Virus record (IMG/VR): IMGVR_UViG_3300029309_000053
Coordinates: 1-55,281 of that record
DNA: 55,281 nt
Source: a virus
Strand: one strand, 5' to 3'
The notes below the pieces were generated by a model. That model was not told the DNA's origin and did no database searches. It saw only the letters and a list, made by a program, of their open reading frames with translations. Position numbers and translations under genes: made by a program. Numbering within the stretch: the stretch's first letter is position 1; the number at the start of each line of letters is the position of its first letter. Positions 7,363 to 55,281 of this stretch are shown one piece after another.

Positions 7363-7528
7363 CAGGTTGCTAGAAGCGAATGCAAAGTATCAAGCGAATC
7401 ACGTATGCGTAAGTAACACGCCTGAACAGCAGAAAGAAATTAATGATTACTGCAATGAAAAATTTATAAAACCAATTAAGGATATAGATCCACATTGGTT
7501 TGGGATAATCAAGAAGCAAAGCGAATAA
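7322..7528 (+). CDS. Hypothetical last gene of the early operon (68 aa)
   Basis: Starts at ATG 7322, overlapping the previous gene by 41 nt. An internal ATG at 7352 (MNIDRLLEANAKYQ) would almost remove the overlap and is a reasonable alternative. It is a small charged protein with no recognised motif. It is followed within 60 nt by an intrinsic terminator (7584-7614), making it the likely end of the early transcript. Confidence 0.6.
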   Translation: MKVNRHKKIKMNIDRLLEANAKYQANHVCVSNTPEQQKEINDYCNEKFIKPIKDIDPHWFGIIKKQSE

Positions 7529-7532
7529 GTAT

Positions 7533-7540
7533 TATATTTG
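7533..7540 (+). promoter_or_regulatory. Bacteroidetes -7 promoter box TATATTTG
   Basis: TATATTTG matches TAnnTTTG exactly and is identical to the box before many late genes. There is no TTG about 19-23 nt upstream. A transcript starting near 7546 would meet the terminator at 7584-7614 after about 65 nt, so this promoter would make a very short RNA unless the terminator is bypassed. Confidence 0.5.
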
Positions 7541-7583
7541 CACTGTTACACGGGTTATTTAGCTGTGGAACTTCGCAATCTGT

Positions 7584-7614
7584 AGAGGGGGGCTGCACAA
7601 GCTCCCCTCTTTTT
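7584..7614 (+). terminator. Intrinsic terminator ending the early operon
   Basis: AGAGGGG (7584-7590) pairs with CCCCTCT (7604-7610) and is extended inward by four pairs (one G-T) around the loop GCACA. The hairpin is followed by a short T run. With an 11-bp GC-rich stem it should stop transcription from the upstream + operon and insulate the secreted-protein genes downstream. Confidence 0.85.
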
Positions 7615-7620
7615 GTTTCT

Positions 7621-7628
7621 TACCTTTG
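7621..7628 (+). promoter_or_regulatory. Promoter box TACCTTTG for the secreted-protein pair
   Basis: TACCTTTG fits TAnnTTTG and lies 7 nt before the ATG at 7636 and 7 nt after the terminator. The transcript would start at or next to the start codon, as for the late promoters. No -33 TTG is present at normal spacing. Confidence 0.5.
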
Positions 7629-7635
7629 TTGTCGA

Positions 7636-9549
7636 ATGAGAATAGTTATTACCATCCTGTTTATGGGCGCTATATTTATGAGCCAAGCTCAAGAGTGCTC
7701 TTTGTTAATGCCTGATAATGTGAAAGTTATGGGGCTCACTAAGCGGTATTTAGTTGTTGATCTTGATGAGGTTGAGACCGTTACTCTACCTATTGTATTT
7801 CACATTGTGCATACTGGGTTGAGTTCAGAGAACAACATATCTGACGAACAAGTCCTCTCTCAATTGCAAGTTTTAAACGAAGAGTTTGAGGACAGCAAGA
7901 TACAATTCTGCTTAGCCGCTAGAGATCCAGATGGTAATCCATCGGTTGGTATAACTAGGTATGACGCTTCGTGGAACGAAGAGTATTTATATGACGGTGT
8001 ATCAAACGGAGCAATGGGCTCAAGTGGGTGGGGCCACGAAGACATGATGCAGTCTTCTGGTTGCTGGAATCCTGATGAATACATAAACTACTACATAGTT
8101 TCTGAGATCAACGGCAACGACGGAGGTAATGGTATTCAAGGCTTTGCATACTTAGGACCCACAAATGACTGCAGAGATGGGGTTGTTTGTCTGTATAATG
8201 TCACGGGCACAGAAGGTGTTGTTAAGTTGGGGAGAGAGCTTGGGTTTACTGGAGTCCACGAGATAGGTCATCATCTATCTCTGTACCATACGTTCTCAAA
8301 CACAATGGACTGCTTTGAGAGCAACTGTGAAACTCAGGGAGATCTAGTCTGTGACACTCCTGTGACATTCGCAAATCAGTCTGGCTGTGACTTACCCACA
8401 TGCGAGGGGGCTCTCACTGAAAACTTCATGGACTATACCATTGAGAGCTGTAAGGAAAGCTTCACTGTTGGGCAGTCAGAGCGTATGCACGAGCAGATAC
8501 AGACTGTCAGGTCTGAACTCGTAGACAACCTATCTTGTGTGCCTGTGGTTGACTATGACGTCACCCCGTATACAGCTATGTATCAAGAGGATTGGTGTAC
8601 CCCGTATCAAGATATATGGATTGATGTTTCAAATCAGGGCAGCACCACCTTAGACTTAGTAGAAGTTCAGCTTTATTGCAACGGTGACGAATATGTAGAG
8701 TACATATACGACATGGGTGTTGGTGTTGAGTCAGTTTTGTTTGAACAGGTTTTTGTTGACGGAGCTCAACAGTTTGAGGTTCAGACTATTAGCGCTCAGG
8801 ACCAGTACGAGGACAATGACTACGCATGGTGGCCACTCTCCACCGACGATGGCTACCTTATGCAGATCACAGTGGACACAGATGTCTGGGCCAACGAAAC
8901 TAGCTGGGACATATACGACTCATCTGGCGAGTTGCTTATAGGCGACGGGGGATACCCCATTCAATCAGGCCCATACGAATATGAAGTTTGTGTGTACGAC
9001 GATTGCTACGACATAGTTATTACTGACACTAATGGTGATGGGTTCTGCTCAATAGACTTTGACAATGATGGAGCTTGTGATATAGGCTCTCAAGGTATTA
9101 CTGCAGTTGTAAACGGACAGGTTGTTTTTGGCACTGAATTTGGACAGCAGTTCTCTGTGTTGGAAGAAAGCTTTTGTATAGACATAGAGCCATGTCCGTT
9201 AGACTTTGATGGCAATGGGACTATAGGCAACGGCGATATTATATACATGGTTGGTGAGTGGGGGTGTGAAGGCGACTGCGAAACAGACCCGAACAATGAT
9301 GGGACTGTGAATGTTTTTGACTTGCTTTATGTGCTTACTGAAATAGGCACCAACTGTCCGATAGAGCAAGACCTTTCTATTGGCATGCTAAAGCAACTAA
9401 CTGTTGCATCTTCTAGCATTATTGGTGGGGCTTCGCCACGCATATACGATGTATCTGGGAGAAGAGTTAGGGGTCAGATAGAAAGCCTTGCTACTGGGGT
9501 GTACATATTGAAGTGGGGCAACGTAACCAAAAAAGTATTTGTCCAATGA
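7636..9549 (+). CDS. Secreted M43 (cytophagalysin-like) zinc metalloprotease with T9SS type A sorting domain
   Basis: A 637-residue preprotein. ATG 7636 is chosen because it opens a clear signal peptide (RIVITILFMGAIFMSQAQ). The catalytic domain has HEIGHHLSLYH (H208, H212, H218; E209) and a Met-turn ENFMDYT about 75 residues later, the metzincin pattern of peptidase M43. A region with Asp-rich, EF-hand/dockerin-like loops follows (DFDGNGTIGNGD; DPNNDGTVNVFD). The C-terminus IYDVSGRRV, then GVYILKWGNVTKKVFV is a T9SS type A sorting domain, so the protein should cross the outer membrane through the host T9SS. A phage carrying such a cargo is unusual. Confidence 0.88.
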   Translation: MRIVITILFMGAIFMSQAQECSLLMPDNVKVMGLTKRYLVVDLDEVETVTLPIVFHIVHTGLSSENNISDEQVLSQLQVLNEEFEDSKIQFCLAARDPDGNPSVGITRYDASWNEEYLYDGVSNGAMGSSGWGHEDMMQSSGCWNPDEYINYYIVSEINGNDGGNGIQGFAYLGPTNDCRDGVVCLYNVTGTEGVVKLGRELGFTGVHEIGHHLSLYHTFSNTMDCFESNCETQGDLVCDTPVTFANQSGCDLPTCEGALTENFMDYTIESCKESFTVGQSERMHEQIQTVRSELVDNLSCVPVVDYDVTPYTAMYQEDWCTPYQDIWIDVSNQGSTTLDLVEVQLYCNGDEYVEYIYDMGVGVESVLFEQVFVDGAQQFEVQTISAQDQYEDNDYAWWPLSTDDGYLMQITVDTDVWANETSWDIYDSSGELLIGDGGYPIQSGPYEYEVCVYDDCYDIVITDTNGDGFCSIDFDNDGACDIGSQGITAVVNGQVVFGTEFGQQFSVLEESFCIDIEPCPLDFDGNGTIGNGDIIYMVGEWGCEGDCETDPNNDGTVNVFDLLYVLTEIGTNCPIEQDLSIGMLKQLTVASSSIIGGASPRIYDVSGRRVRGQIESLATGVYILKWGNVTKKVFVQ

Positions 9550-10562
9550 AAAAGCTGCTGTGGTTTTTCTTGCCTCTAGTTTCTTGGGGGCAATGTGACA
9601 TAGAGATAATAGGATTCAACCCTATATCCACTGACATGACTATCGCTGTCAACGGAGGGTACTGCGGGACCCCCTCAGACTCGATTGGAGAGTTCTTGCT
9701 TGCACTATCTTTTACCCCGCCTATAGAAGACATACAAGATGATTTTCCTTGCTTCTATGAGGACGGCTGGGCTAAATTAATATTTCCGTTAGACTTTCCT
9801 GGATTCGACATAGGCGAGGGTGAAGACGACATACTTCAGACGGGCGACACTATTACTTTTAATCTTGCAGAAACGCCGTGGGCTGGATCTGGATCTGCAG
9901 ACTGTTGGATTGATGTAATGCAAAGCGCAGCATACTTTATGGAGTGTGTGATAATAACTGTGTGGCAGATAAATGACAGCGAGAGCATAACAGGCGTAGG
10001 CGGACTTGCGGGATTCCCATATCCAGATGAAGATATATGGAACAGCTGGATCATGTGGTCTCTAAATGGCGCTTGTTCGCCACCGCCACCCCCAATCGTA
10101 TACGGATGCACCGATATGTTCGCATACAACTACAACGGAACTGCCACGATAAACGACGGAAGCTGTGTGTATCAGGGGTGCTTAGATCCTGACGCGCTAA
10201 ACTACTGTGAGGAATGCACTATAGAAGGTGACTGCATATATCCTCCAGACGACAACGACCTAGGCATTGATTGTAACGATCCATCTATCTACGTTCCAAA
10301 TACTTTCACGCCAAACAACGACGGAATAAACGATGTCTGGAGGCCCATAACCAAGCAGGATTGCTGGTGGAAGTGGGAGTGCCGCGTGTACAACAGGTGG
10401 GGCACGTTGGTTTGGATAAGCTACGACCCTAACGACAAGTGGATAGGGGAAAGGCTTGAGTACTTTGTTCCCGATGGGGTGTACACCTGGATGATACAGG
10501 GTTCCACATGGGAAAGCAATAAGGTTGTAAGTATGACAGGTAACGTAACTATCTTCAGATAA
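9546..10562 (+). CDS. Secreted Cys-rich protein with gliding-motility-associated (T9SS type B) C-terminal domain
   Basis: A 338-residue preprotein coupled to the protease by ATGA. It has a signal peptide (KKLLWFFLPLVSWGQC), an acidic N-terminal domain of about 160 residues, a repeat region GCTDMFAYNYNGTATINDGS followed by a degenerate second copy starting GCLDPDALNY (a repeat common in marine Bacteroidetes secreted proteins), and a C-terminal domain with VPNTFTPNNDGINDVW, VYNRWGTLVW and PDGVYTWMI. This is the CHU_C/gliding-motility C-terminal (type B) T9SS signal. No enzyme motif is visible; binding or adhesion at the cell surface is likely. Its stop abuts the convergent gene with no gap. Confidence 0.88.
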   Translation: MKKLLWFFLPLVSWGQCDIEIIGFNPISTDMTIAVNGGYCGTPSDSIGEFLLALSFTPPIEDIQDDFPCFYEDGWAKLIFPLDFPGFDIGEGEDDILQTGDTITFNLAETPWAGSGSADCWIDVMQSAAYFMECVIITVWQINDSESITGVGGLAGFPYPDEDIWNSWIMWSLNGACSPPPPPIVYGCTDMFAYNYNGTATINDGSCVYQGCLDPDALNYCEECTIEGDCIYPPDDNDLGIDCNDPSIYVPNTFTPNNDGINDVWRPITKQDCWWKWECRVYNRWGTLVWISYDPNDKWIGERLEYFVPDGVYTWMIQGSTWESNKVVSMTGNVTIFR

Positions 10563-10916: not shown

Positions 10917-11344
10917 TTTCTAGATTTTTCTATAGTCCTTCCCGCAAAGTATGCCCCAAAAGAAGTAAGCATCAGGATCTCCAGCAAAGATACATAAGAA
11001 TTTTTGACGTTAAAAGGCAGCTGATCAAGGGAGTCCAAAACCATTGTAGCCATAAACATTATCATTAGGCAGATTAAAGTAACTGGTCTTATGTACTTTG
11101 CAAGCTTGACATCGCTACCCATATCCGCCTTCCATCTTTCGGTTACGTTATTTTGAAATGCAATTTCTGCATCAACTATAGCCTTAGCTTCTGCGGGATC
11201 TACGTCATCCTCTTTATCTAAAAGGTTTTTTACAATGCCGAGCGCTCCCTTGTCGGGGAGCAGCTCGCCTACCGTGTCTAATACGCTGGGCGCCTTGTCT
11301 TTGAGCCAGGCCCCCAGCCGTGTGTTTTTAATTTTGTCTTTCAT
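10913..11344 (-). CDS. Holin-like membrane protein (GTA-holin 3TM type)
   Basis: A 143-residue protein. The soluble half contains QNNVTERWKADMGSD followed by KYIRPVTLICLMIMFMATM, resembling the family of three-TM holins found in phages and gene transfer agents (conserved RW-x-AD and IRP). Two clear hydrophobic segments follow (about residues 90-107 and 117-135). It would permeabilise the inner membrane to release the endolysin. The endolysin itself is far away at 51.1-51.6 kb. The start overlaps the end of the giant upstream gene by 17 nt. Confidence 0.68.
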   Translation of the reverse strand: MKDKIKNTRLGAWLKDKAPSVLDTVGELLPDKGALGIVKNLLDKEDDVDPAEAKAIVDAEIAFQNNVTERWKADMGSDVKLAKYIRPVTLICLMIMFMATMVLDSLDQLPFNVKNSYVSLLEILMLTSFGAYFAGRTIEKSRK

Positions 11345-14300
11345 GTATTGCGTTTGTTATAGCGTTCCTTGATCTCGGGTCTATGTACTTGCCCCTGAGT
11401 TCGTAATAGGCTTTGTTGAACTGGCTGATCTCAACTAACTCAGCCTCAGTAAGTTGATGAATAGCATTGATCCTGTCGATGTAGTCCTCAATCTTCTGGG
11501 CATTTTGCCTTGCCTCCCTGATAATCTCAAGTCTTTTCTTGGTGCCCTTTAGCACTTCATTGAGCTGTTGCACGCCTACGAAGTTCAGCCCCTGAGCATC
11601 CGTCTCACCTTTGTCAATCTCTCTTGTGTACTGCCCTAGCTCGTTGACGTTCTCTGTGAAAACGTCGTAGTTATAGTACTTGTTCTCCTTTCCGTACAAG
11701 ATGTTAAGGAACGGGATGTCCTTTCTTTCGATGGGCACGGTGTCCTCTTCGCGCATGGTAAACAGTTCATCAAGGAACTGATCAGAGCTTTCGAGATTTT
11801 GCAGTCTAGTCACCTTTCTCTTAGCCACCTCGTATCCGATACGGCCAAGGTTTGCCACCTGGCCTATGGTCTTTCCGAGGCCTGCGGTGTATGAGGAGAT
11901 GAGATATGCGTATGGGTCTGGATTAAAGTCAAGCGGTCCGCTTACATTTTCTGTGCCCTTTCCACCAAGCGCGTTTAGATACTTGGCTAGTTGCTTGACA
12001 ACCTCAGGGGATCTGAATGACAGAGTCCACTCTGGCACTGGTGCTCCAAACGGATACTGCTCTCTGATAATCTGGTTGCCAGTAAAGGATGTATTAGAAT
12101 ACAGGTCAACTGGGAATCTAAGAGCAGTCGGCAAGAAGCCCAACCCGATCCGCTCAATCACGTTGTCCCCCTGACCAAATCCGAGAGGAGAGAAAGAGTT
12201 CAACGCCCCCATACCGAGGAACACACCCCCATCGATGATGTCTCTCTGTCCAGTAGACAGCTCACCTATGGCCATGCCTATGTTATTAAACATGTTGTAT
12301 CCGTATGGGATAGGCAGGGTAAGGTAATCGCTAGGTCCGTCTCCGTAAAAGATGATGGAGTTTCTCTCCTTCACGTAGTCAGGGATGGTGTTGTAGTACA
12401 ACTCACCATCCTCCCCCTCTCCAGACATGGCAATGTTGAACAAGGTCTTCATCACCTCAAAGGCTACGACACCTCCAGCCAGCTTTGCTGTGGCAGGGGC
12501 CCTATTAAACCAGCCGTCTGACTGGCCGTTCTGACCTGGAGGCTTAGCCTTGGGTGTGGCCATGGTTCTTGTAAACCTGGCCGCAGACTGAGACGCTGCG
12601 TTGAAGAACAGATACATAGAGTTGTAGCTTGAAGACGCCTCACCTGATCTGTTAAAGTTCACGGTTATGTTCTTAGATAGCTGTGCTGCTCTTTGCTTTG
12701 ATACTCCGACCTTGCGAGCCTCTAGGTAGGCCGCAAATCTAATCGCGTTCTCAAAGGCCTCGTTGATGCCCTCGATATACTCAAAGATTTTCTTACCCTG
12801 ATAGAATCCCTTAAGAATTTCCTTAGCCTTAGCTGGATCCCCTGCTGCTTTCTCAAGTTTGCCCTGGATCTCGGCGATGGTTTCAGAATACGCCCACCCA
12901 GTTCTTCCTCCTGACTGCTTCCACTCCTGCAACTGTTTGGCCATCTCGGGATCGAGGTCGAACCCAAAGACGCCTTCCTTTAGCAGGGGCTTGAGCACCT
13001 TAAGCGATGTTGACACAACATCCCTAGAGAACTCACCTGGCTTTAAGCCGAAGCCAGTCATAATACCACCGTCTCTCTCCACCTCAGACATGGCGTTGAA
13101 TACGGCAGAGCCTATGTCTCGAACGTAGTTCTTAATGAAGAACGCGGGATTGTACACGGTTGCAAAGTTTCTTAGCAAAGAGATGTACTTACCCATGCTC
13201 TTTACGGCTGATCCTGTTTCTTCCTCCGTAAGTCCGTTCAAAGCATCAGCATAGCTCATGTCCTTGAAGAAGATAAAGTGCTGCTTACCGTTGATGCGAA
13301 GCGGCACCATGTGACGGTGAGCCTTCATCTCCGCTACGTTCATCTTCTGCTGAGAACCATCATCAGCAAGCTTGGTCATAGGGTTGGCTTCGGAGTAAAG
13401 CTTCCACACACCCTCATTCGGGTTCTCCTGAACCAATCTATGGAGCGAACGCATAGACTCATCCTTTCTTGCACGCTGCTTAATTGACATGTTCTGAGCA
13501 ATCACAGATGCCACGATATTCGTGCCAGTTCTAGACTTTCTACCCTTGGCCTTTTTACTTGACATACCATAGACAGAGAAACCGCCTCCCCCTGTTGGGT
13601 AGGAGTTGCTTTCTTCTGACTGCTCATCAAGAGCCAGGCCATTAAGCGGTACGTAGTTCTTGAATAAAGACTCCCAATGAGCAATGACCTCTCTTGATTC
13701 AAGGCCGCCTTCTACCATGGTCCTTCGTGTGTTAGCAACGATGTCGTACACAAGGTTTACTGAGTCCATGATCTCAGGGGACATAAGCTCGTCGATGATT
13801 GCGTCGGCCTCTTCGTTGGTCATACCAGAGCCTGCGTCCAAGTCCTTTCTCTTCTTGGAGATATGTGCGTTGCGCTCCTTAGCGTGCAGCGCATATAGCA
13901 AGTCAGACAGATCTTCAACCGTGTGGCCAGAAACCTCAAGGCTCTTACCTATCTTCTCTATCTCTCTGCCCAGCGACTCCATGTCCTCTCTTACCTTTCC
14001 GTAGAAGAGATCGATGGCCATCTCAAAGTCCTGAGACTCAGGCACTCTCTGACCCCTGAAGACCTCGATGTCCTGCTGCAAAAGCATGATATCGCTGTAC
14101 TTGTCCTGCAGCCTTCTTGTGATGGTCTGCAGCTTCTCTCCGTACGGGGTAGCGGTAGACTTCTCCCAAGCACTGTTACCCTGGGTGTACACTCTACCCA
14201 TCAGCCTTCTAGACCTCAAGGCCTGAGAGCCTCTAGCAAACTTAGACTCCTGCTGAGCGTGCTGACCAAACCTCCTCATGATGCGAGGCTTGTCAGGATT

Positions 14301-17300
14301 GTATATTACGTCAGCGTCAGAGGCCTTATCGTAGAGGGCGTAAGCCACGTCATTCATGCTCTCTGCCATAACAGCAATCGGGAAACCGTTGTTGAAGTTA
14401 TCTCCAGTCGTATCGTCTAGCTTCTCCGTAGTGAGCCCAGACGTTCTCGCAACATACGTAGCAACTATTCTTCCCGTACCGTCGGCTCCTAGATCGTTGA
14501 ATCTAGGGTCGTTCATGGTCTGTAATATCTCCTCTTTGCTCAGGAAGCCATCGTGATTCTTTGCCTTCATGCCTTTGACAACCTTGTCGATAAAAAGACC
14601 CCTTCCCTCAAATCCAAGCTGCTCATTTACATGCTCAGGAAGGTTGGACATAAATTCAAGAAACGCCTCAAGTCCCTGCTCGTCTTGAATGGTGACGCGA
14701 TTCTTTTTGACCTTAATGCCAGCCTTGTTCTTAAGCTTTCTGTCGTTCAGAACCCTTTCGAATTTGCTGTATTTCTTTACACTTGAGTTCGTGCCTCTCG
14801 TAGTCTGATATTCTTTCGAGGTTATGCCAATCTGACTCTTGAGCACCTCATTTATAACCGCAATGAGATCCTTATTGTAGTTGTTTCCTGACGCCTTGTT
14901 CTGACTGTAATACTCATTGACATATCTGAAGAACATCTCAATAGTCTTAGGGCTTCTGAGCGTGTTTTCTGGAGCTCTAAGGGCTATATCTATTGCTACG
15001 TACTTAGCGAACTCAGGCATGTCCGTAATCGCACTAGCGCTCTCTCCGTTAACGTGAGAAGAAAGCATTGCATCATTGAATGCAACTGCACCAAGCGGAC
15101 CTCCTATTTGATTCTGAATGAGCGCAATCCCGTTGCCCTCGCTGTCCCTAAGCTGATTTCCCTTCTTGTCCTTGATCACCCAAGCAACCTCTCCATGTCT
15201 AGTTCTGTCATAGAGAATAGCCTTGCTTACCATATTGTTCATAAGGCTTTTAACGGTGATGCCAAGCTTCTTGGCTGCCGCCTCGAGAGCTTCTCTTCTG
15301 TTCTTTCCAAACACAGCCCTGTCGCTGAGAGACAACGCTTCCTGTTCCGTCATGCCGATCGACATGTTGATGTAGTCGGAAGACCCCATGTCTCCATAGG
15401 TTTTAGGGCGGCCCTTCTTCTTACTGCCAATACCGATATCTCCTGTTGTCACCCTTGTGGACCTGAGGGGTCCACCAGCCTGAGCGTCGAGCACAAAGTC
15501 AGCACCCTCCTTGATCTCCTCAAGTCTAATGGTGGCATAGGACAACTCGTCCTCTGGTATCATAGACAGGTCTTCGACTCTTCTCTTCCTGGAGATAGAG
15601 CCTGGGGGTAACAACTCCCACACGTTGACCCCAAGCTCAGTGGCTTCGTATTCGAGCTGAGCGTTAGCCTCGTCTGCTGTAAGAAAGTCATAATCCTTTG
15701 CCAGATCAAAAAGCTCTGGAGCATTCTTCCTGTCCAAGACATAAACGGTTCTGTCAGACCTGGCTTGAACTTTAGCATGAACCTCGGCGATGTCAATGCC
15801 TGAGTTCATGAGAGCGAGCATGTTGTTTCTCTGCTGCAGCTGGAATCTAGCGGCCTCAACAGGTGTAAGAAACTGGGTGTCTGCGTCCACGACAGGCTTG
15901 AAGGAATGAAATTCAAGGCTAAATGTTTTGCCTTCCTTAGACTCTATGTTCTTAAACATATTGTGAATACGAGAGGTCTCTTGAACTAGGCTGCCTCGCT
16001 TCATTGCTACTTCCCTACCTATGTCCACCCTAGTCATAAGGTCGTTCATATTTCTCTCCCTTGGGAGCTGAAGAATAGGCTTCATGACCTTTGGCTTGCC
16101 ATCCTTATCAAGTCTTGGCTTAGGGTAGTTGAGGTTAAATCTCTTTCCGTCTCTGAAGAAGTGGATGTCTCTGATAACCCCCTCTCTTCTACCGTTGCCA
16201 GTCATGCTGGCATACCAGTTTGCAAAGTGTCTGTAGTCGTTGAACGTCTTGCTTCTCTGGCTGTCCATCTGAGACCCTCTGCCTACACGGGGATTAGCCT
16301 CCAAGTCTCCGAAGTTGAATACGTTCTGTGTCCAGAAAATCTCCACGTTCTGGAGATACTGCTTCTTGCTAGCAAGTGGTTGACCGCTTTCGATCTCTGC
16401 GATATCCTCTGCTGTCTCAACCTGCTCTGGGGTTGTGTACATCTCCCCAAGCGACTCACCCTCTGCAAAGTTCTTAAACCTCAAAACAAGGTTGATGAGG
16501 TCAGAGTCGGTTGATGCGTCTGGGAACCCCGTGATCTTAGAGAACACATTACGAACCACAGCCTTGACGCCTAGGTCAGAGATCTCAAAACCCTCGATGG
16601 GGTTTTGAGATCTTATGAACTCACCCTCAGCGATTGCCTCAAACAGAGCTGTGATAAGCTCTCTATCTCTTTCGCCTCTCGCTGCCTCCGAGTACTGCAT
16701 GTCCAACGCCTCAACAAGCTCCTGAACTCTCTCAGACTTGAGGCCCCTGATCTGTTCGGCAAGATCGTACACCATCTCGGGATTATCCTGGAAGAGAGGC
16801 TCGAGGAAGAAGTGCGTGTACTCGTGGAATGCAACTCTGCTTAGGTCTGCATCCTTGTGTATGTGGATCTCGTGAGAGCCGTCAGGTCTCTCCATGTACA
16901 GCCCCTCGGTGACAAGCTCGTTCCTGAATGGCACAGGCGCCTCGCTTCTCACACTCTCTCCATTGACGTATGCAAGAGACTCGTCATCGTGAAGGACAAT
17001 GCTTACGCGCCTACCACTTCCCTTTGCTTGATCAATGACATTCTGAAGAGCCTTAATTTCGGAGGCGGTGAACTGTGAGAGGTCCACCTCTTGATCTCCG
17101 TCGATGACAACTTCTCTCGCATCCGCAAACCCTCTTGATCTCCAGTCTTGACCCTGCGTTGTAACGAGTCCACCAAACGAGTCCACACCGATCCTTCCCT
17201 CGCCAGAGAACATAAGCAACCCGAGGTTGATATTCTGTATCTGCTTGCCGCCCTTATTGTACGCATCTTGCAGCTCAGCAAATCTCTCCTGAGACATACC

Positions 17301-19871
17301 TTGAGCGAAGTCATACATAGGGTTGTTGGACGCAGCCACAAACCTTCCGTTCCAATCTCTAAGCCTTCCGTTCTGATCCAGCTTGCCCCCGCCGATACGT
17401 ACGTTCTCGAGGAACTGATGATAGTTGTTCGCGATAAGCATATCTGCCACCAGCGCTGGGTTAGATCTACCAAGCTGCTCAAGCGCGTTACGAGTTGCCT
17501 CGTTGTTGGCGTCTATCTTGTTTAGCTCTGTTTCTATCTTGGCAAGAACCGCTCTATCCGACTTGGTCGGAGTCATCAGGTAGTTCTCAGAAAGCTGAAC
17601 CCTCAAGGTGTCAAGCTTTCTTCTAGTCTTAGCTGGCAAAACATCGTTCATGAATTGCTGAAAAGCCGTGAGAGCTACAGTATCGTTGAACTGATCGTTC
17701 ATAAAGGTCCGCATGAAGCTGGCCTTAGCATTCTCCACAACGACAGAGCCGCCTGGCAAGAAGCCCATGTACTTGCCCACGTTAGCGCCGTGAGTTCCAA
17801 GCTCCTTCCCCACAAGGAACGCCTCAGACAAAGACTTACCCTCCATGAGGGCTGTGTCAAACCCCTGAGAGAATCCAGTCACAAACTCTGCGGCGCTCTC
17901 TTCTACGACACCTACACCTGTAGCAAGGGTAATACCAGCGGCGCCTCTTCCGATTCTGTAGAATACGTCAGCACCTGTTCCAGCCTTGTACCCTGTAGTG
18001 GCAAACGGAGAGAACCGAGTCCCCCTAAGGAACTTACCCGCGATACCTATGGTACCAGCAGACACCGCCTCACCGAAGCCTTCGGACATTCCGTATCTAA
18101 GAGAATGCCAGAACCTATCCTCAGGCGAAAGATCCTTAAGCAGCTCTTCATTCATAGACCCATAGTACCTGTCAGACCCCACCATAGCGGTAGTGAATGC
18201 GAAGGTTGGGGCTGCTGTAACAGCGAAAGCTGCAGCCATGCTCATGCCACCCGTGACAGGAGACAAGGCCAGGCCTGGTGCCATCATCGCGAGAGACACA
18301 GGCATAGACTGTATGGCCTCAAGCGCATACGTTCTCTCTATGTCTGATGCTATCTGCCTACCGATATCCTCTTTGATCTTCAGTCCGTTTGCAAGAAGGT
18401 CTGTCTCGAGGGATATGGCGTCCTTGCCAAAAAGCTTCCAGGTCTTAGCGTCGACGGCATACTGGCTCATCTGAAGCTGGAGCCTATACTGCTCAGCCTC
18501 TATTTCTTTTCTCTTCTCTAGATGCTTTTGTTTATTTCTCTCCTGTTCTTGCTCGGTTGCGAATCTAAACGGAAGGGCTCCTGGCATATCAAGCATTCGC
18601 TCGTCTATGACCAGTCCAGAAGCTGTACCCATTGCGTCTATTTGCTTCTCAAGCTCTAGGGTTCCTATATCCCAGCTAATATTAGCTTCATCCCAGAACT
18701 CAGCCTCATCACCGATGACATTGTTCTCGTCCAGCATGAACTTGAACATGTTTGGAGATACAGCAGTTCCCTTGAAGGACTGCTGTATGTCGTAGAAGTC
18801 GCTGCCAATCACAGACGTGCCAAAGACTTCGGCCTCGATATCCTTGGCGAGCTTCTCGAACTCTTCTGTACCCTTCTCTATTCCCTTAAGCTGCGCAATT
18901 CGGTTTACCTGCGCCGATAGGTTGGCGTTCATAAACTTCTTCAGAGCGTTTGCTTTGAGCTCTCTGACGTATTGATCGGTCAGGTCTCCTGACTGATCGA
19001 GCTGACTCTCAAGGGTTGCAATCTCTTTCTCTATGTCAGAAAGAAGGGCGTCACCCTGAGGAACTGACCTCATGCTCTTCAGGTAGTTTTCTTTTCTTAG
19101 CTTGACTGCATCCAGCTGTGCCCGAACAGAAGCCTTTCTCTCCTCCAAGAACTCAGGGCTAATCTCCGTGTTGAGGTACTCGTCAATAGACCCGTCCTCT
19201 AGGCTCAGTCCTCCAAGCAAGTCTGACGCATTGTACAGGGCTCTGGTTGAGATCTGATCTCCTATAAGAAGTGGGGCTCGCCCTTCGGGACGCATGATAT
19301 TAAATGCTGACCCTGGCAAGAACTGTCCAGTAACTGACTGCTGTGTAATAGAAAATTCTCCTGAATCTACACCAGCCTTGAATGCAACAGGGTCAATCTC
19401 CCTCAGCAGCCTCGTGGCATTGTCCTGAAAACCTGACTTGTAATTTTCGTAAGCAGATTGATATGCGTCAAATGACTCAGCATAAGGCTGATACACCTCT
19501 TGGTCGTACGCATTGGTTATGCTTTGCTCGTACGCTTGCACTGCAGGATCAAAGACCTCGGTTTTGTACGCCTCGTTTATCCTGTTGTTAGCGGCTTCTA
19601 GTTTAATGCGGTCCTGCGCAGCATCGCCTGTTGATATGACAGGGTCAAACCTATCTTGATTGACTTCGTACCAATCGTCAATGGACTGAGGCTGCTGAAA
19701 AGAAAATGTTTCTCCGTTCTGTTCGAACCAAGAGTCAAACGCCATGGGGTCTTCAGGCGCCGTAGGTGCGGTTAGTCCGTACTCATCGAGCAAAAGCTGG
19801 CCCGACTCAGACTCCGCTAGTATATCAAGAGCGCTTGGCTCCGAATCCGATTCTGTATTCTCTCCCTCCAA
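11328..19871 (-). CDS. Giant virion-type polyvalent protein with zincin motif and LPD38-like domain (2847 aa)
   Basis: The frame is open for 2847 codons from a TTG at 19871, but a better N-terminus lies in another frame upstream (see 19872-19983), so the gene appears frame-broken in a T10 tract. An Ala/Gly/Met-rich hydrophobic region (about residues 520-565) could insert in membranes. HEYTHFF (H1016, E1017, H1020) is a zincin active site. About residues 2215-2480 (NPAFFIKNYVRD, then NITVNFNRSGEA, then YLFFNAASQSAARF) match the large-polyvalent-protein domain LPD38 as I recall it. Such proteins are packaged and ejected with phage DNA. It probably acts in infection, with protease activity against host proteins possible. 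Confidence 0.78.
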   Translation of the reverse strand: MEGENTESDSEPSALDILAESESGQLLLDEYGLTAPTAPEDPMAFDSWFEQNGETFSFQQPQSIDDWYEVNQDRFDPVISTGDAAQDRIKLEAANNRINEAYKTEVFDPAVQAYEQSITNAYDQEVYQPYAESFDAYQSAYENYKSGFQDNATRLLREIDPVAFKAGVDSGEFSITQQSVTGQFLPGSAFNIMRPEGRAPLLIGDQISTRALYNASDLLGGLSLEDGSIDEYLNTEISPEFLEERKASVRAQLDAVKLRKENYLKSMRSVPQGDALLSDIEKEIATLESQLDQSGDLTDQYVRELKANALKKFMNANLSAQVNRIAQLKGIEKGTEEFEKLAKDIEAEVFGTSVIGSDFYDIQQSFKGTAVSPNMFKFMLDENNVIGDEAEFWDEANISWDIGTLELEKQIDAMGTASGLVIDERMLDMPGALPFRFATEQEQERNKQKHLEKRKEIEAEQYRLQLQMSQYAVDAKTWKLFGKDAISLETDLLANGLKIKEDIGRQIASDIERTYALEAIQSMPVSLAMMAPGLALSPVTGGMSMAAAFAVTAAPTFAFTTAMVGSDRYYGSMNEELLKDLSPEDRFWHSLRYGMSEGFGEAVSAGTIGIAGKFLRGTRFSPFATTGYKAGTGADVFYRIGRGAAGITLATGVGVVEESAAEFVTGFSQGFDTALMEGKSLSEAFLVGKELGTHGANVGKYMGFLPGGSVVVENAKASFMRTFMNDQFNDTVALTAFQQFMNDVLPAKTRRKLDTLRVQLSENYLMTPTKSDRAVLAKIETELNKIDANNEATRNALEQLGRSNPALVADMLIANNYHQFLENVRIGGGKLDQNGRLRDWNGRFVAASNNPMYDFAQGMSQERFAELQDAYNKGGKQIQNINLGLLMFSGEGRIGVDSFGGLVTTQGQDWRSRGFADAREVVIDGDQEVDLSQFTASEIKALQNVIDQAKGSGRRVSIVLHDDESLAYVNGESVRSEAPVPFRNELVTEGLYMERPDGSHEIHIHKDADLSRVAFHEYTHFFLEPLFQDNPEMVYDLAEQIRGLKSERVQELVEALDMQYSEAARGERDRELITALFEAIAEGEFIRSQNPIEGFEISDLGVKAVVRNVFSKITGFPDASTDSDLINLVLRFKNFAEGESLGEMYTTPEQVETAEDIAEIESGQPLASKKQYLQNVEIFWTQNVFNFGDLEANPRVGRGSQMDSQRSKTFNDYRHFANWYASMTGNGRREGVIRDIHFFRDGKRFNLNYPKPRLDKDGKPKVMKPILQLPRERNMNDLMTRVDIGREVAMKRGSLVQETSRIHNMFKNIESKEGKTFSLEFHSFKPVVDADTQFLTPVEAARFQLQQRNNMLALMNSGIDIAEVHAKVQARSDRTVYVLDRKNAPELFDLAKDYDFLTADEANAQLEYEATELGVNVWELLPPGSISRKRRVEDLSMIPEDELSYATIRLEEIKEGADFVLDAQAGGPLRSTRVTTGDIGIGSKKKGRPKTYGDMGSSDYINMSIGMTEQEALSLSDRAVFGKNRREALEAAAKKLGITVKSLMNNMVSKAILYDRTRHGEVAWVIKDKKGNQLRDSEGNGIALIQNQIGGPLGAVAFNDAMLSSHVNGESASAITDMPEFAKYVAIDIALRAPENTLRSPKTIEMFFRYVNEYYSQNKASGNNYNKDLIAVINEVLKSQIGITSKEYQTTRGTNSSVKKYSKFERVLNDRKLKNKAGIKVKKNRVTIQDEQGLEAFLEFMSNLPEHVNEQLGFEGRGLFIDKVVKGMKAKNHDGFLSKEEILQTMNDPRFNDLGADGTGRIVATYVARTSGLTTEKLDDTTGDNFNNGFPIAVMAESMNDVAYALYDKASDADVIYNPDKPRIMRRFGQHAQQESKFARGSQALRSRRLMGRVYTQGNSAWEKSTATPYGEKLQTITRRLQDKYSDIMLLQQDIEVFRGQRVPESQDFEMAIDLFYGKVREDMESLGREIEKIGKSLEVSGHTVEDLSDLLYALHAKERNAHISKKRKDLDAGSGMTNEEADAIIDELMSPEIMDSVNLVYDIVANTRRTMVEGGLESREVIAHWESLFKNYVPLNGLALDEQSEESNSYPTGGGGFSVYGMSSKKAKGRKSRTGTNIVASVIAQNMSIKQRARKDESMRSLHRLVQENPNEGVWKLYSEANPMTKLADDGSQQKMNVAEMKAHRHMVPLRINGKQHFIFFKDMSYADALNGLTEEETGSAVKSMGKYISLLRNFATVYNPAFFIKNYVRDIGSAVFNAMSEVERDGGIMTGFGLKPGEFSRDVVSTSLKVLKPLLKEGVFGFDLDPEMAKQLQEWKQSGGRTGWAYSETIAEIQGKLEKAAGDPAKAKEILKGFYQGKKIFEYIEGINEAFENAIRFAAYLEARKVGVSKQRAAQLSKNITVNFNRSGEASSSYNSMYLFFNAASQSAARFTRTMATPKAKPPGQNGQSDGWFNRAPATAKLAGGVVAFEVMKTLFNIAMSGEGEDGELYYNTIPDYVKERNSIIFYGDGPSDYLTLPIPYGYNMFNNIGMAIGELSTGQRDIIDGGVFLGMGALNSFSPLGFGQGDNVIERIGLGFLPTALRFPVDLYSNTSFTGNQIIREQYPFGAPVPEWTLSFRSPEVVKQLAKYLNALGGKGTENVSGPLDFNPDPYAYLISSYTAGLGKTIGQVANLGRIGYEVAKRKVTRLQNLESSDQFLDELFTMREEDTVPIERKDIPFLNILYGKENKYYNYDVFTENVNELGQYTREIDKGETDAQGLNFVGVQQLNEVLKGTKKRLEIIREARQNAQKIEDYIDRINAIHQLTEAELVEISQFNKAYYELRGKYIDPRSRNAITNAIHERQN

Positions 19872-48149: not shown

Positions 48150-48161
48150 GTATAATTGTTG

Positions 48162-48235
48162 TACGCCCGACAGGACTCGAACCTGTGACCGTCTGCTTAG
48201 AAGGCAGATGCTCTATCCATCTGAGCTACGAGCGC
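48162..48235 (-). tRNA. tRNA-Arg (anticodon TCT)
   Basis: A complete cloverleaf on the - strand: acceptor GCGCTCG/CGGGCGT (two G-T pairs), TA at 8-9, D arm GCTC...GAGC, anticodon stem TCTGC/GCAGA around loop CTTCTAA (anticodon TCT at 48201-48199), and T arm ACAGG-TTCGAGT-CCTGT. CCA is not encoded. It would read AGA codons. It lies 12 nt upstream of the TerL start, so it may be cut from a late transcript. Confidence 0.9.
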
Positions 48236-53033: not shown

Positions 53034-53492
53034 TTATGACATAGCCGCGAATACCTCCAGCTGAGGTGTACCAGCGGCGGCCCTGGCCATAATCAAATCA
53101 ATAGATCCTCCGAATGAATATGAGCCACCGATGGCCACGGAGGTGCTGGCATCGTTTGCGTCGAAATCAGTGTTATAGAGGACGTACGATTGCCCCGCCG
53201 CTAGATTTATTATGTATTGCTCGGAGTCAGTGTCCTCAATAGAAAGCGTAATTGTGTTTGCGGACGTGGTAGTTAGGTTTGTAAATCTCATGTATTTCAG
53301 CTTGGTGCGGCTAATGGTGCCCGCACCGTCTGCAGATCCAAACTTCAACACCTCAGTATCTGCCCCTGTTCCGATATCCAACACACGGGAGTAAGTCTCT
53401 GTAATACTAGATATTTCGTTAACATTCTCAGATCCACGATGAACACCGTTGATCAAGACGTCTTCTTTTACTGTGATTGTCAATGTAGCCAT
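53034..53492 (-). CDS. Small virion-type protein, paralogue group member (152 aa)
   Basis: A beta-rich protein with KLKYMRFTNLTTTSANTITL, LAAGQSYVLYNTDFDA and a hydrophobic end, resembling in order of strands the two small proteins at 37.7-38.5 kb (YVKNLS... then GG-F-FP). Starts MATLTITVKEDVLINGVHRG. It overlaps the upstream gene by one base. Likely structural; the relation to the other two is weak and should be tested. Confidence 0.55.
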   Translation of the reverse strand: MATLTITVKEDVLINGVHRGSENVNEISSITETYSRVLDIGTGADTEVLKFGSADGAGTISRTKLKYMRFTNLTTTSANTITLSIEDTDSEQYIINLAAGQSYVLYNTDFDANDASTSVAIGGSYSFGGSIDLIMARAAAGTPQLEVFAAMS

Positions 53493-54487
53493 TATCTAAA
53501 CTTCTTTCTGATTCGGTCCCTCATCTGCATGAGGAATGGGGTGTTGCCACCGTGCTCGTTCGAGACGCGAGGACCATCCATTCTAAATGGGATACCGCTT
53601 CCTGCTGGCATAGCTCCAAGACCTATCGGGTCATCGAACCCTTGCTCACGGCCTGGGCCTACAATCATCTCCATGTTGCCCTTGTCTCGCATGCGCTCAA
53701 GGATGCGCTCATCCAACAATCGCTGCCTTCTGGCCGCCCTCTCTTCTGCTTCAGTAGGCTCAGAGTCTCTGAAATCCTGCATGGCTTCTCTCGCGGCCTG
53801 AACTCTTTCGGCTTCAACAAAGCCAGCGTTGTCCCCTGTTGGGCCAGCCTCACCCCGAACCATCAGCTCTCTAGTCTTGGGGAGGTCATCAAAGGTGGTT
53901 CCTTCGCCCGCATCAAACATCCCTGGCTGCACATCGCTAGGCGGTGCCACACTTCTGCCGAACATGGATGCAAGAGCCGCATTGCTTTGAATCGCCTGCT
54001 CAAGATCATTCATGCGCCCCTCCCTGTACTTCTCTAGGTCAGCATCCAGAACCTCATCCACGAAGTCCTCTTCCCCCTGCTCTATATTAAGACCAAGCGC
54101 AGCAGCTTCCTCTGCATCCTTCATTCTTTTCTTCTTGTCTCTTTTGCTAGGATCAGGAGAATCCTTAGGCAAACCATCCATCAAGTCCTCACGACTCATC
54201 ATCTCCATGTCGAGCTTTGCCTCGGCAATGTCCTGTCCTTCTTTTCTTGCTTTTCTGGTGTCAAGGAACTCACCGAGTGCGTCCTTACCCTTCTCCAAAG
54301 CTCCAGTCTTGGAGGCGATGGCGAGCGCGGCAGCTAAGCCCGCGCCGCCTATACCAGCGGATCTACGATTAGCTTTGTTAACCTCTCGATCTAGTTGCAT
54401 AAGATCACGTCTCTCGCTTGGCGTGAGACTGCCCTTCTTCATCTTTTTCATGAGGGCGCGTCGCATTTTTCTTCTAGCCTTTGACAT
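53492..54487 (-). CDS. Putative virion protein with basic N-terminus (331 aa)
   Basis: Starts MSKARRKMRRALMKKMKKGS, a strongly basic head, followed by a hydrophobic Ala/Gly segment (GIGGAGLAAALAIASK), then acidic, helical, Lys/Asp-rich regions and a C-terminus GIPFRMDGPRVSNEHGGNTP. The last part resembles the Gly-rich protein downstream. A TATATTTG box precedes the ATG by 4 nt. It is the first gene of the late cluster after the hairpin array. Function unknown. Confidence 0.6.
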   Translation of the reverse strand: MSKARRKMRRALMKKMKKGSLTPSERRDLMQLDREVNKANRRSAGIGGAGLAAALAIASKTGALEKGKDALGEFLDTRKARKEGQDIAEAKLDMEMMSREDLMDGLPKDSPDPSKRDKKKRMKDAEEAAALGLNIEQGEEDFVDEVLDADLEKYREGRMNDLEQAIQSNAALASMFGRSVAPPSDVQPGMFDAGEGTTFDDLPKTRELMVRGEAGPTGDNAGFVEAERVQAAREAMQDFRDSEPTEAEERAARRQRLLDERILERMRDKGNMEMIVGPGREQGFDDPIGLGAMPAGSGIPFRMDGPRVSNEHGGNTPFLMQMRDRIRKKFR

Positions 54488-54499: not shown

Positions 54500-55281
54500 G
54501 CTCTATTTTTTTTAGAAGAGAACGTTATTAACGCCTACATCTGAAATAAATACAGCTATCCCGTATTTAACATTGATATGAGAACCGTATCTGTGTGGAT
54601 GCCCCTAAGCATCCCACCAAATCACTGCTTAATTCTCATGATCGCAAAGTTATAACAGAAAATTTGAAAAGTCAACCCTAAAGAATGGCTTTAAGGTAGA
54701 CCGCATAATAGATTGAAATAGCATTAGTTAGCGGATTTGATGCGAAATCCGCATGGATCGTAAAAAATTCTGGGAGTAATGTTTATAGTGGGGATTATAT
54801 GTCTACGCGTGAAGGACTTCCACCGACAGAAAACGAGTTTTCTGACCCCCCTCCCCTCGACAGACCCTTCGGGTCTGAGGTAGCTTTTGGTCTACCTCCC
54901 TACAGCTCAGCTCTTTAGAGCTGAAGCCTTAAAGCATAGCTTTAAGTAGCATCGATTCCGACGAAGTAGCGCGTTGTCCTGAGCATAATGCGCTGACAAT
55001 CACACCCTTCGAATCCTTGGCTTGGAGTATTACTCCAATACGACTGGACATTGAAGCTATGGTTCAACTCGGAAACTCTAATACCCTTGGTATTAGGCAG
55101 TTGGTTTGAAGACGGCAAAATCGGTGGGGTCGGCTTTGGCGGAGCGGTGCACAGCGCCGTAGTGCGCGGAGTCAACTTGTTGACTTCCTGTGACTACCGA
55201 GGTTTGGCTTCAACCATTACTCTACTTCGTAGAGGAATGAGTCGGTGGGGAAGTAGAGTTGTAGAGAAGTAAGAGAGAGGA
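54500..55281. other. Long non-coding region at the right end
   Basis: About 780 nt without a convincing gene. The first part (54500-54720) is AT-rich with short imperfect repeats, for example GGATGC...GCATCC at 54597-54614. The second part (54731-55239) holds the hairpin array described separately. Two short frames cross the array (54942-55175 and 55051-55272) but their codons follow the stems and they have no promoter or start context, so I do not call them. An origin, a packaging signal or a structured RNA are the candidates. Confidence 0.7.
54731..55239. repeat. Array of about ten short inverted repeats (hairpins)
   Basis: Perfect or near-perfect stems: 54731-54752 (8 bp), 54827-54844 (8), 54861-54877 (7), 54877-54898 (7), 54907-54924 (7), 54928-54946 (8), 55022-55038 (7), 55078-55096 (8), 55170-55185 (7) and 55215-55239 (11, one mismatch). 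Five have three-base loops (TTC, CTT, ATA, ATT, TTC); the others have loops of 2-8 bases. Stem sequences differ, so it is structure rather than sequence that repeats. An 11th pairing, ACTCTACTTC (55219-55228) with GAAGTAGAGT (55250-55259), competes with the last hairpin. Confidence 0.85.

Follow-up and report, generated by a model that had tools for sequence, protein, structure and literature searches.

A hairpin-rich intergenic region in an uncultured, putative Bacteroidota phage is probably a concatemer junction with a short direct terminal repeat

What is the role of a dense array of small hairpins lying between the divergent late and early gene blocks of an uncultured phage? The DNA analyzed here (the window) comprises the 55,281 bp of an IMG/VR contig, in which the late genes, including those encoding terminase and portal (phrog_6681, phrog_6547), run leftward and the early genes, including those encoding an exonuclease VIII-like protein and a primase-helicase, run rightward. 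The presence of CHU_C and BT4734-N domains suggests a Bacteroidota host. Judging from a relative (L152), in which the first gene of the window lies at 11.7 kb and the conserved core described below at 5.65 kb, about 5.5 kb of the early region is lacking between the end and the start of the window. The array occupies non-coding DNA upstream of the first late gene (53492–54487, minus strand), and the neighboring 331-aa protein had no relatives by pattern search. At 54731–55240, eight perfect Watson-Crick stems, none overlapping another, were detected with a minimum of 7 bp and loops of 1–10 nt, compared with a mean of 0.24 and a maximum of 3 in dinucleotide shuffles, none of which (0/500) reached eight. 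Elsewhere in the window at most three such stems per 510-nt stretch were found, overlapping stretches aside, making the array the densest part, and a 91% 11-bp stem (CATTACTCTAC/GTAGAGGAATG, 55215–55239) together with other near-perfect stems raised the count to about ten. The folding energy of the whole region gave a z of about -4 on both strands, more stable than shuffled sequence, and the stems differed in sequence, none being a copy of another. These results bear out the sequence-only reading, which had described about ten unlike stems of 7–11 bp and proposed shuffled sequence as the comparison. Its placement of the array directly upstream of the first late gene also held, with a probable late promoter, TTGAC-N-TATAACTTTG (54645–54675, minus strand), intervening. 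This motif, which we take to be of the Bacteroidota -33/-7 promoter type, was found at a similar position in 27 of 56 relatives, where shuffles predict 1.9, and probably drives the late operon starting at 54487. Because it sits between the array and the late gene, the array probably lies outside the late transcript.

Relatives were gathered through terminase and primase searches (141 loci), and the pattern GGGGATTATA-N30-60-CCCCCTCCC retrieved 56 stretches with nearly constant spacing. The resulting core, A6..GAGAAATRTA..GTGGGGATT^ATATATAT..AAACG..ACCCCCCTCCC.. (^, contig end or predicted cut), was single-copy in about 65 related IMG/VR contigs and lay upstream of the late genes. Core-anchored alignment was almost indel-free from -30 to +67, with conservation of the A-tract, GAGAAATRTA, GTGGGGATTATATATAT, AAACG, and ACCCCCCTCCC, and nearly all relatives had, at +165 to +210, another element, (G)GAC^AATC, that has a C-rich tail. 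A profile of the core matched 27 of 32 large records, one copy each save in two records, and the core was missing from elemo phage NC_055853 and MW202828. A search of genome contigs also returned 29 scattered matches to the core pattern, which profile scoring identified as chance.

The ends of related contigs revealed what the core delimits. Two divergent contigs, G006 (55,066 bp) and G026 (61,030 bp), carried a second, truncated core copy at base 1, and the left ends of both fell exactly after GGGGATT (GGGGATT^ATA). The end repeat was 189 bp and exact in G006 and 169 bp in G026, where the two copies differed at 5 bases, and the repeats stopped at GTGA^CAATACC and GGGGAC^TATACC, respectively. 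Three contigs of other lineages (L144, L198, and L038) ended at GGGAC^, GGAC^, and GGAAC^, that is, at the right boundary, so that this element terminates five contigs, of which four stop exactly at GGAC^/GAAC^ and the fifth one base before it (GTGA^). Among 55 contigs with a known end, 21 stopped no more than 700 nt downstream of the core, and contigs with the first early gene, all of which run through the junction, provided no further left end. Overlap of assembly k-mers is a poor explanation, because 189 is an odd length (to our knowledge not a usual assembly k-mer), the two copies in G026 differ, which by itself argues against such an overlap there, and the boundaries are conserved motifs. 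The contig ends at conserved motif boundaries therefore identify the region as a direct terminal repeat (DTR) with two cut sites. In G006 and G026, direct repeats occupied both genome ends, and the termini in the relatives were fixed and sequence-specific (two left and five right ends); the repeat measured 169–205 bp in 29 relatives, within the range from about 100 up to several hundred bp that defines the short-DTR type. The window, an incomplete contig, holds one copy, with a predicted length of 201 bp.

From these well-supported repeats we infer that the window has matching boundaries. Its left terminase site (A-tract, GAGTAATG, GTGGGGATT^; 54760–54796, plus strand) is near-invariant in 38 diverse relatives. 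It is followed by the predicted DTR (54797–54997, plus strand), which is homologous to the repeats of G006 and G026, and by the right terminase site, GAC^AATCACACCC (other strand GGGTGTGATT^GTC; 54990–55007, minus strand), with a cut predicted after 54997 from the five contig ends. On the opposite strand, the right boundary has a G-rich GATT^GTC as its reverse-complement consensus, and the left boundary is GGGGATT^ATAT, so that both have GATT^ in inverted orientation, with the right-boundary motif of the window agreeing with GGGGATT in GATT only. The pairing of GGGGATT with AATCCCC had first been read as the closing helix of an RNA, a candidate discarded since the contig ends show both to be cut sites. 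The inverted GATT^ is consistent with staggered terminase nicks, and DTRs, which measure 160 bp in T7 and 231 bp in T3, are described as arising by extension at staggered nicks (PMC5557969).

Thus, the region is very probably the concatemer junction, or packaging site, of a linear podovirus-like phage of the short-DTR type. This reading is supported by the location of the site, where the late and early blocks diverge; the 322-bp DTR annotated for the Tenacibaculum phage Gundel (Pachyviridae) has a comparable setting. In such a junction, terminase would cut one strand at GGGGATT^AT, after 54796, and the other at the inverted motif GATT^GTC, after 54997, and the piece of about 200 bp between the nicks would be copied from the two 3' ends, yielding a repeat at both ends of the packaged genome. 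Among the candidates listed in the sequence-only reading, a packaging site is thus favored by the contig ends, whereas a structured RNA is not supported for the DTR part, where Rfam gave no match and wobble-type mismatches were symmetric between strands.

Four of the hairpins are predicted to lie within the DTR of the window and the others to its right, before the first early gene, apart from one immediately left of the repeat (GCGGATTT/AAATCCGC, 54731–54752), which has similar counterparts only in close relatives. The four are H1, CAGAAAA-CGAG-TTTTCTG (54827–54844); H2, CAGACCC-TTC-GGGTCTG (54861–54877), with 6 of 7 pairs changed on both sides; H3, TCAGCTC-TTTA-GAGCTGA (54907–54924), with CG/GC/UA exchanges; and H4, CTTAAAGC-ATA-GCTTTAAG (54928–54946). 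A C-rich run, ACCCCCCTCCCC (54845–54856, plus strand), is conserved in the relatives' alignment at a constant spacing from the left cut. RNAalifold on 46 diverse repeats detected almost nothing because the stems vary too fast to align, and positional counts of stems of at least 6 bp in 34 non-redundant diverse relatives were used instead. Stems occurred at the place of H1 in 17 (1.2 expected), of H2 in 22 (1.0 expected), of H3 in 18 (1.6 expected), and of H4 in 16 (1.2 expected), with sequences that differed among the relatives at all four places. Among 12 closer relatives, 14 of the 28 pairs of the four hairpins, H1 to H4, were altered on both sides, and the covariation score was 0.287, compared with 0.139 after shuffling (0/500) and at most 0.091 with partners slid. 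The double-sided changes and the covariation above the null indicate that pairing in the DTR hairpins is kept, as had been claimed from the single sequence.

The strand on which this pairing matters was addressed through wobbles. Summed over helices common to both folds, wobble-type mismatches numbered 34 GT and 37 AC (14 and 8 in single hairpins), and the minus strand folded better in 15 of 19 sequences. The lack of a clear wobble strand preference would argue for pairing at the DNA level or for a mutation process that perfects palindromes. The hairpins most likely act at the DNA level, where the strands of the DTR might fold on themselves and so aid separation of the 200 bp between the nicks, or the hairpins may instead mark single-stranded ends. 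Accepting the junction, we can offer only tentatively the further proposal that the DTR is a DNA folding device, in which inverted motifs direct nicks about 200 bp apart, hairpins open the duplex, and the copies are filled in; if true, the compensatory evolution of the arms would reflect selection on DNA rather than RNA. The hairpins are dispensable for DTR formation, because the proven-DTR lineages G006 and G026 have one and none in the DTR, respectively, and several of the 34 relatives also have none there.

These hairpin-free lineages would also suit hairpins without function, produced when template switching during replication or end filling perfects palindromes and changes both arms at once, as would the perfection of the Watson-Crick stems, in which wobbles are few whichever strand is read. 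The occurrence of four positions at a fixed distance from the left cut across many lineages is not what such a process would lead one to expect, and we consider it unlikely, if the foremost of the alternatives. Strong covariation in phage intergenic DNA need not imply RNA.

In the interval that starts at 54998, beyond the DTR, and reaches the first early gene (MNNFNFSD..., known from relatives), the clade of the window has at least five further hairpins, as well as a hairpin of about 25 bp and one around the start codon, all restricted to closer relatives. Besides the stem at 55215–55239, those in the window are TTGGAGTA/TACTCCAA (55022–55038), CTAATACC/GGTATTAG (55078–55096), with compensatory changes in relatives, AGTCAA-CUUG-UUGACT within an outer stem (GTAG..CTAC; 55165–55195, plus strand), and the 5' arm of the ~25-bp hairpin (55256–55281, plus strand), which is complete in relatives and in which the contig ends (55281). 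An all-pairs covariation test with a tree-based null on 19 sequences, a number at which it lacks power, yielded no more than 4 pairs at E < 0.5, all of them perfect pairs and the best right of the DTR: pair 55172–55183 (paired in 19/19 as AT, CG, and TA; E 0.10), pairs in the ~25-bp hairpin (E 0.00 and 0.10), and the start-codon hairpin of the first early gene, TTCATC-TAC-GATGAA (E 0.45). The last of these, with the start codon inside it, was seen at about 9960–9990 of L146 and at other loci. In the weak helix near 55165–55192, plus-strand wobbles were GT 25 versus AC 6. The region probably constitutes the early-operon leader, for which a role as RNA is plausible, the plus-strand wobbles pointing that way. 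Nine of 56 relatives (0.8 expected), among them L160, L148, L178, and L183 (+318 to +408 from the core), had early promoters of the Bacteroidota type beyond the right end of the DTR, at +318 to +466, and the pattern was not found in the window's own clade. Separately, the string TTCATCTACNATGA was present in 21 loci, twice in some, and the ~25-bp hairpin had a constant AGAGGAGTC apex in the window and in L243, L239, L238, and others. A GACTCTC in this hairpin matches the GAGAGTC loop of the next hairpin, both changing together (GACTTCTC/GAGAAGTC), which may possibly constitute a switch or pseudoknot.

If the whole region instead encoded a large structured non-coding RNA or a long, folded leader, with transcription proceeding rightward out of the core and on into the first early gene, then the strong covariation, the folding z, the hairpin at the downstream start codon, and the plus-strand wobbles near 55165–55192 would all find a place. 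Such a transcript is nonetheless rather improbable: Rfam gave no match to the array at gathering or permissive thresholds, wobbles are symmetric in helices present on both strands, the minus strand more often folds better, the recognizable early promoters sit right of the DTR, and the most strongly conserved sequence is accounted for by the DTR boundaries. Two Rfam matches of 20–21 bit, to GA-cis and mir-3747, were set aside as chance.

A replication origin, at which an AT-rich stretch melts and hairpins serve as single-strand initiation sites, would agree with the single copy per contig, the constant motif spacing, and the ATTATATATAT adjoining the hairpins. As an explanation in place of a DTR it is improbable, given that contig ends fall on motif boundaries, which an origin does not predict, and that no iterons were found; an origin could exist in addition to the DTR at the same site. 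Promoters for an injected N4-type virion RNA polymerase, which might be suggested by the small hairpins, with their 3-nt loops, ahead of early genes and by two giant virion proteins (2847 and 2219 aa), are very improbable, since the hairpins are too many and differ in sequence from each other, and a simple pattern search found no polymerase motifs in the two giant proteins. The 2847-aa protein (11328–19871) has an LPD38 (large polyvalent protein) domain and is a candidate injected protein.

Comparison with known systems places the proposed junction among short-DTR phages. A BLASTN search of the hairpin region against named phages gave no match. T7 and T3 share with it fixed termini, a similar repeat length, one copy per junction, and a position between the late end and the early start, and their repeats also have a 6–7 bp stem with a TTC loop; a hairpin containing the terminal repeat has been described for T7 concatemers in work cited in PMC4281155. 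In contrast, their repeats have no sequence similarity to the present one, the T7 cut sites show no inverted resemblance to each other whereas here both have GATT^, and hairpins are well in excess of chance here (P 0.004), an excess that is not clear for T7 (P 0.076) or T3 (P 0.31). Gundel, whose terminase is distantly related (29.7%), also has its DTR between a minus-strand block and rightward early genes, and likewise carries an ACCCCCC run, some 50 nt in from the left end, but differs in its cut-site sequence, its longer repeat, and its lack of stems of 6 bp or more. The terminal repeats of phiEco32/SU10 (193 bp) represent short DTRs of the same length in podoviruses (PMC4281155), although of unrelated hosts. 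The large ornate RNAs GOLLD, ROOL, and OLE likewise are long structured non-coding stretches in phages with a tRNA gene, whereas here Rfam matches and a clear wobble strand preference are lacking. The tRNA in the window is a tRNA-Arg (TCT) amid the late genes (48161–48235).

The short-DTR (T7-like) type of genome end is thus already known, and the hairpin array and the inverted cut motifs appear to be new. The analysis provides, from sequence alone, a base-precise prediction of genome ends and terminase motifs for a large group of uncultured aquatic Bacteroidota phages. Competing models exist for the duplication of short terminal repeats at concatemer junctions (PMC4281155), a process still modelled more than settled, and a group with an inverted cut motif and pair-maintained hairpins offers a natural test system for the staggered-nick model.

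Two minor observations concern other loci. Long AT/GA-rich hairpins (TATATATACTCTCT...AGAGAGAGTATATATA) were seen at the starts of G021 (L284) and G010 (L258), perhaps representing another hairpin-rich intergenic site that breaks assemblies. In addition, the window carries at 7495–10562 a gene for an M43-type metalloprotease beside one for a CHU_C type IX secretion signal protein, an odd cargo for a phage.
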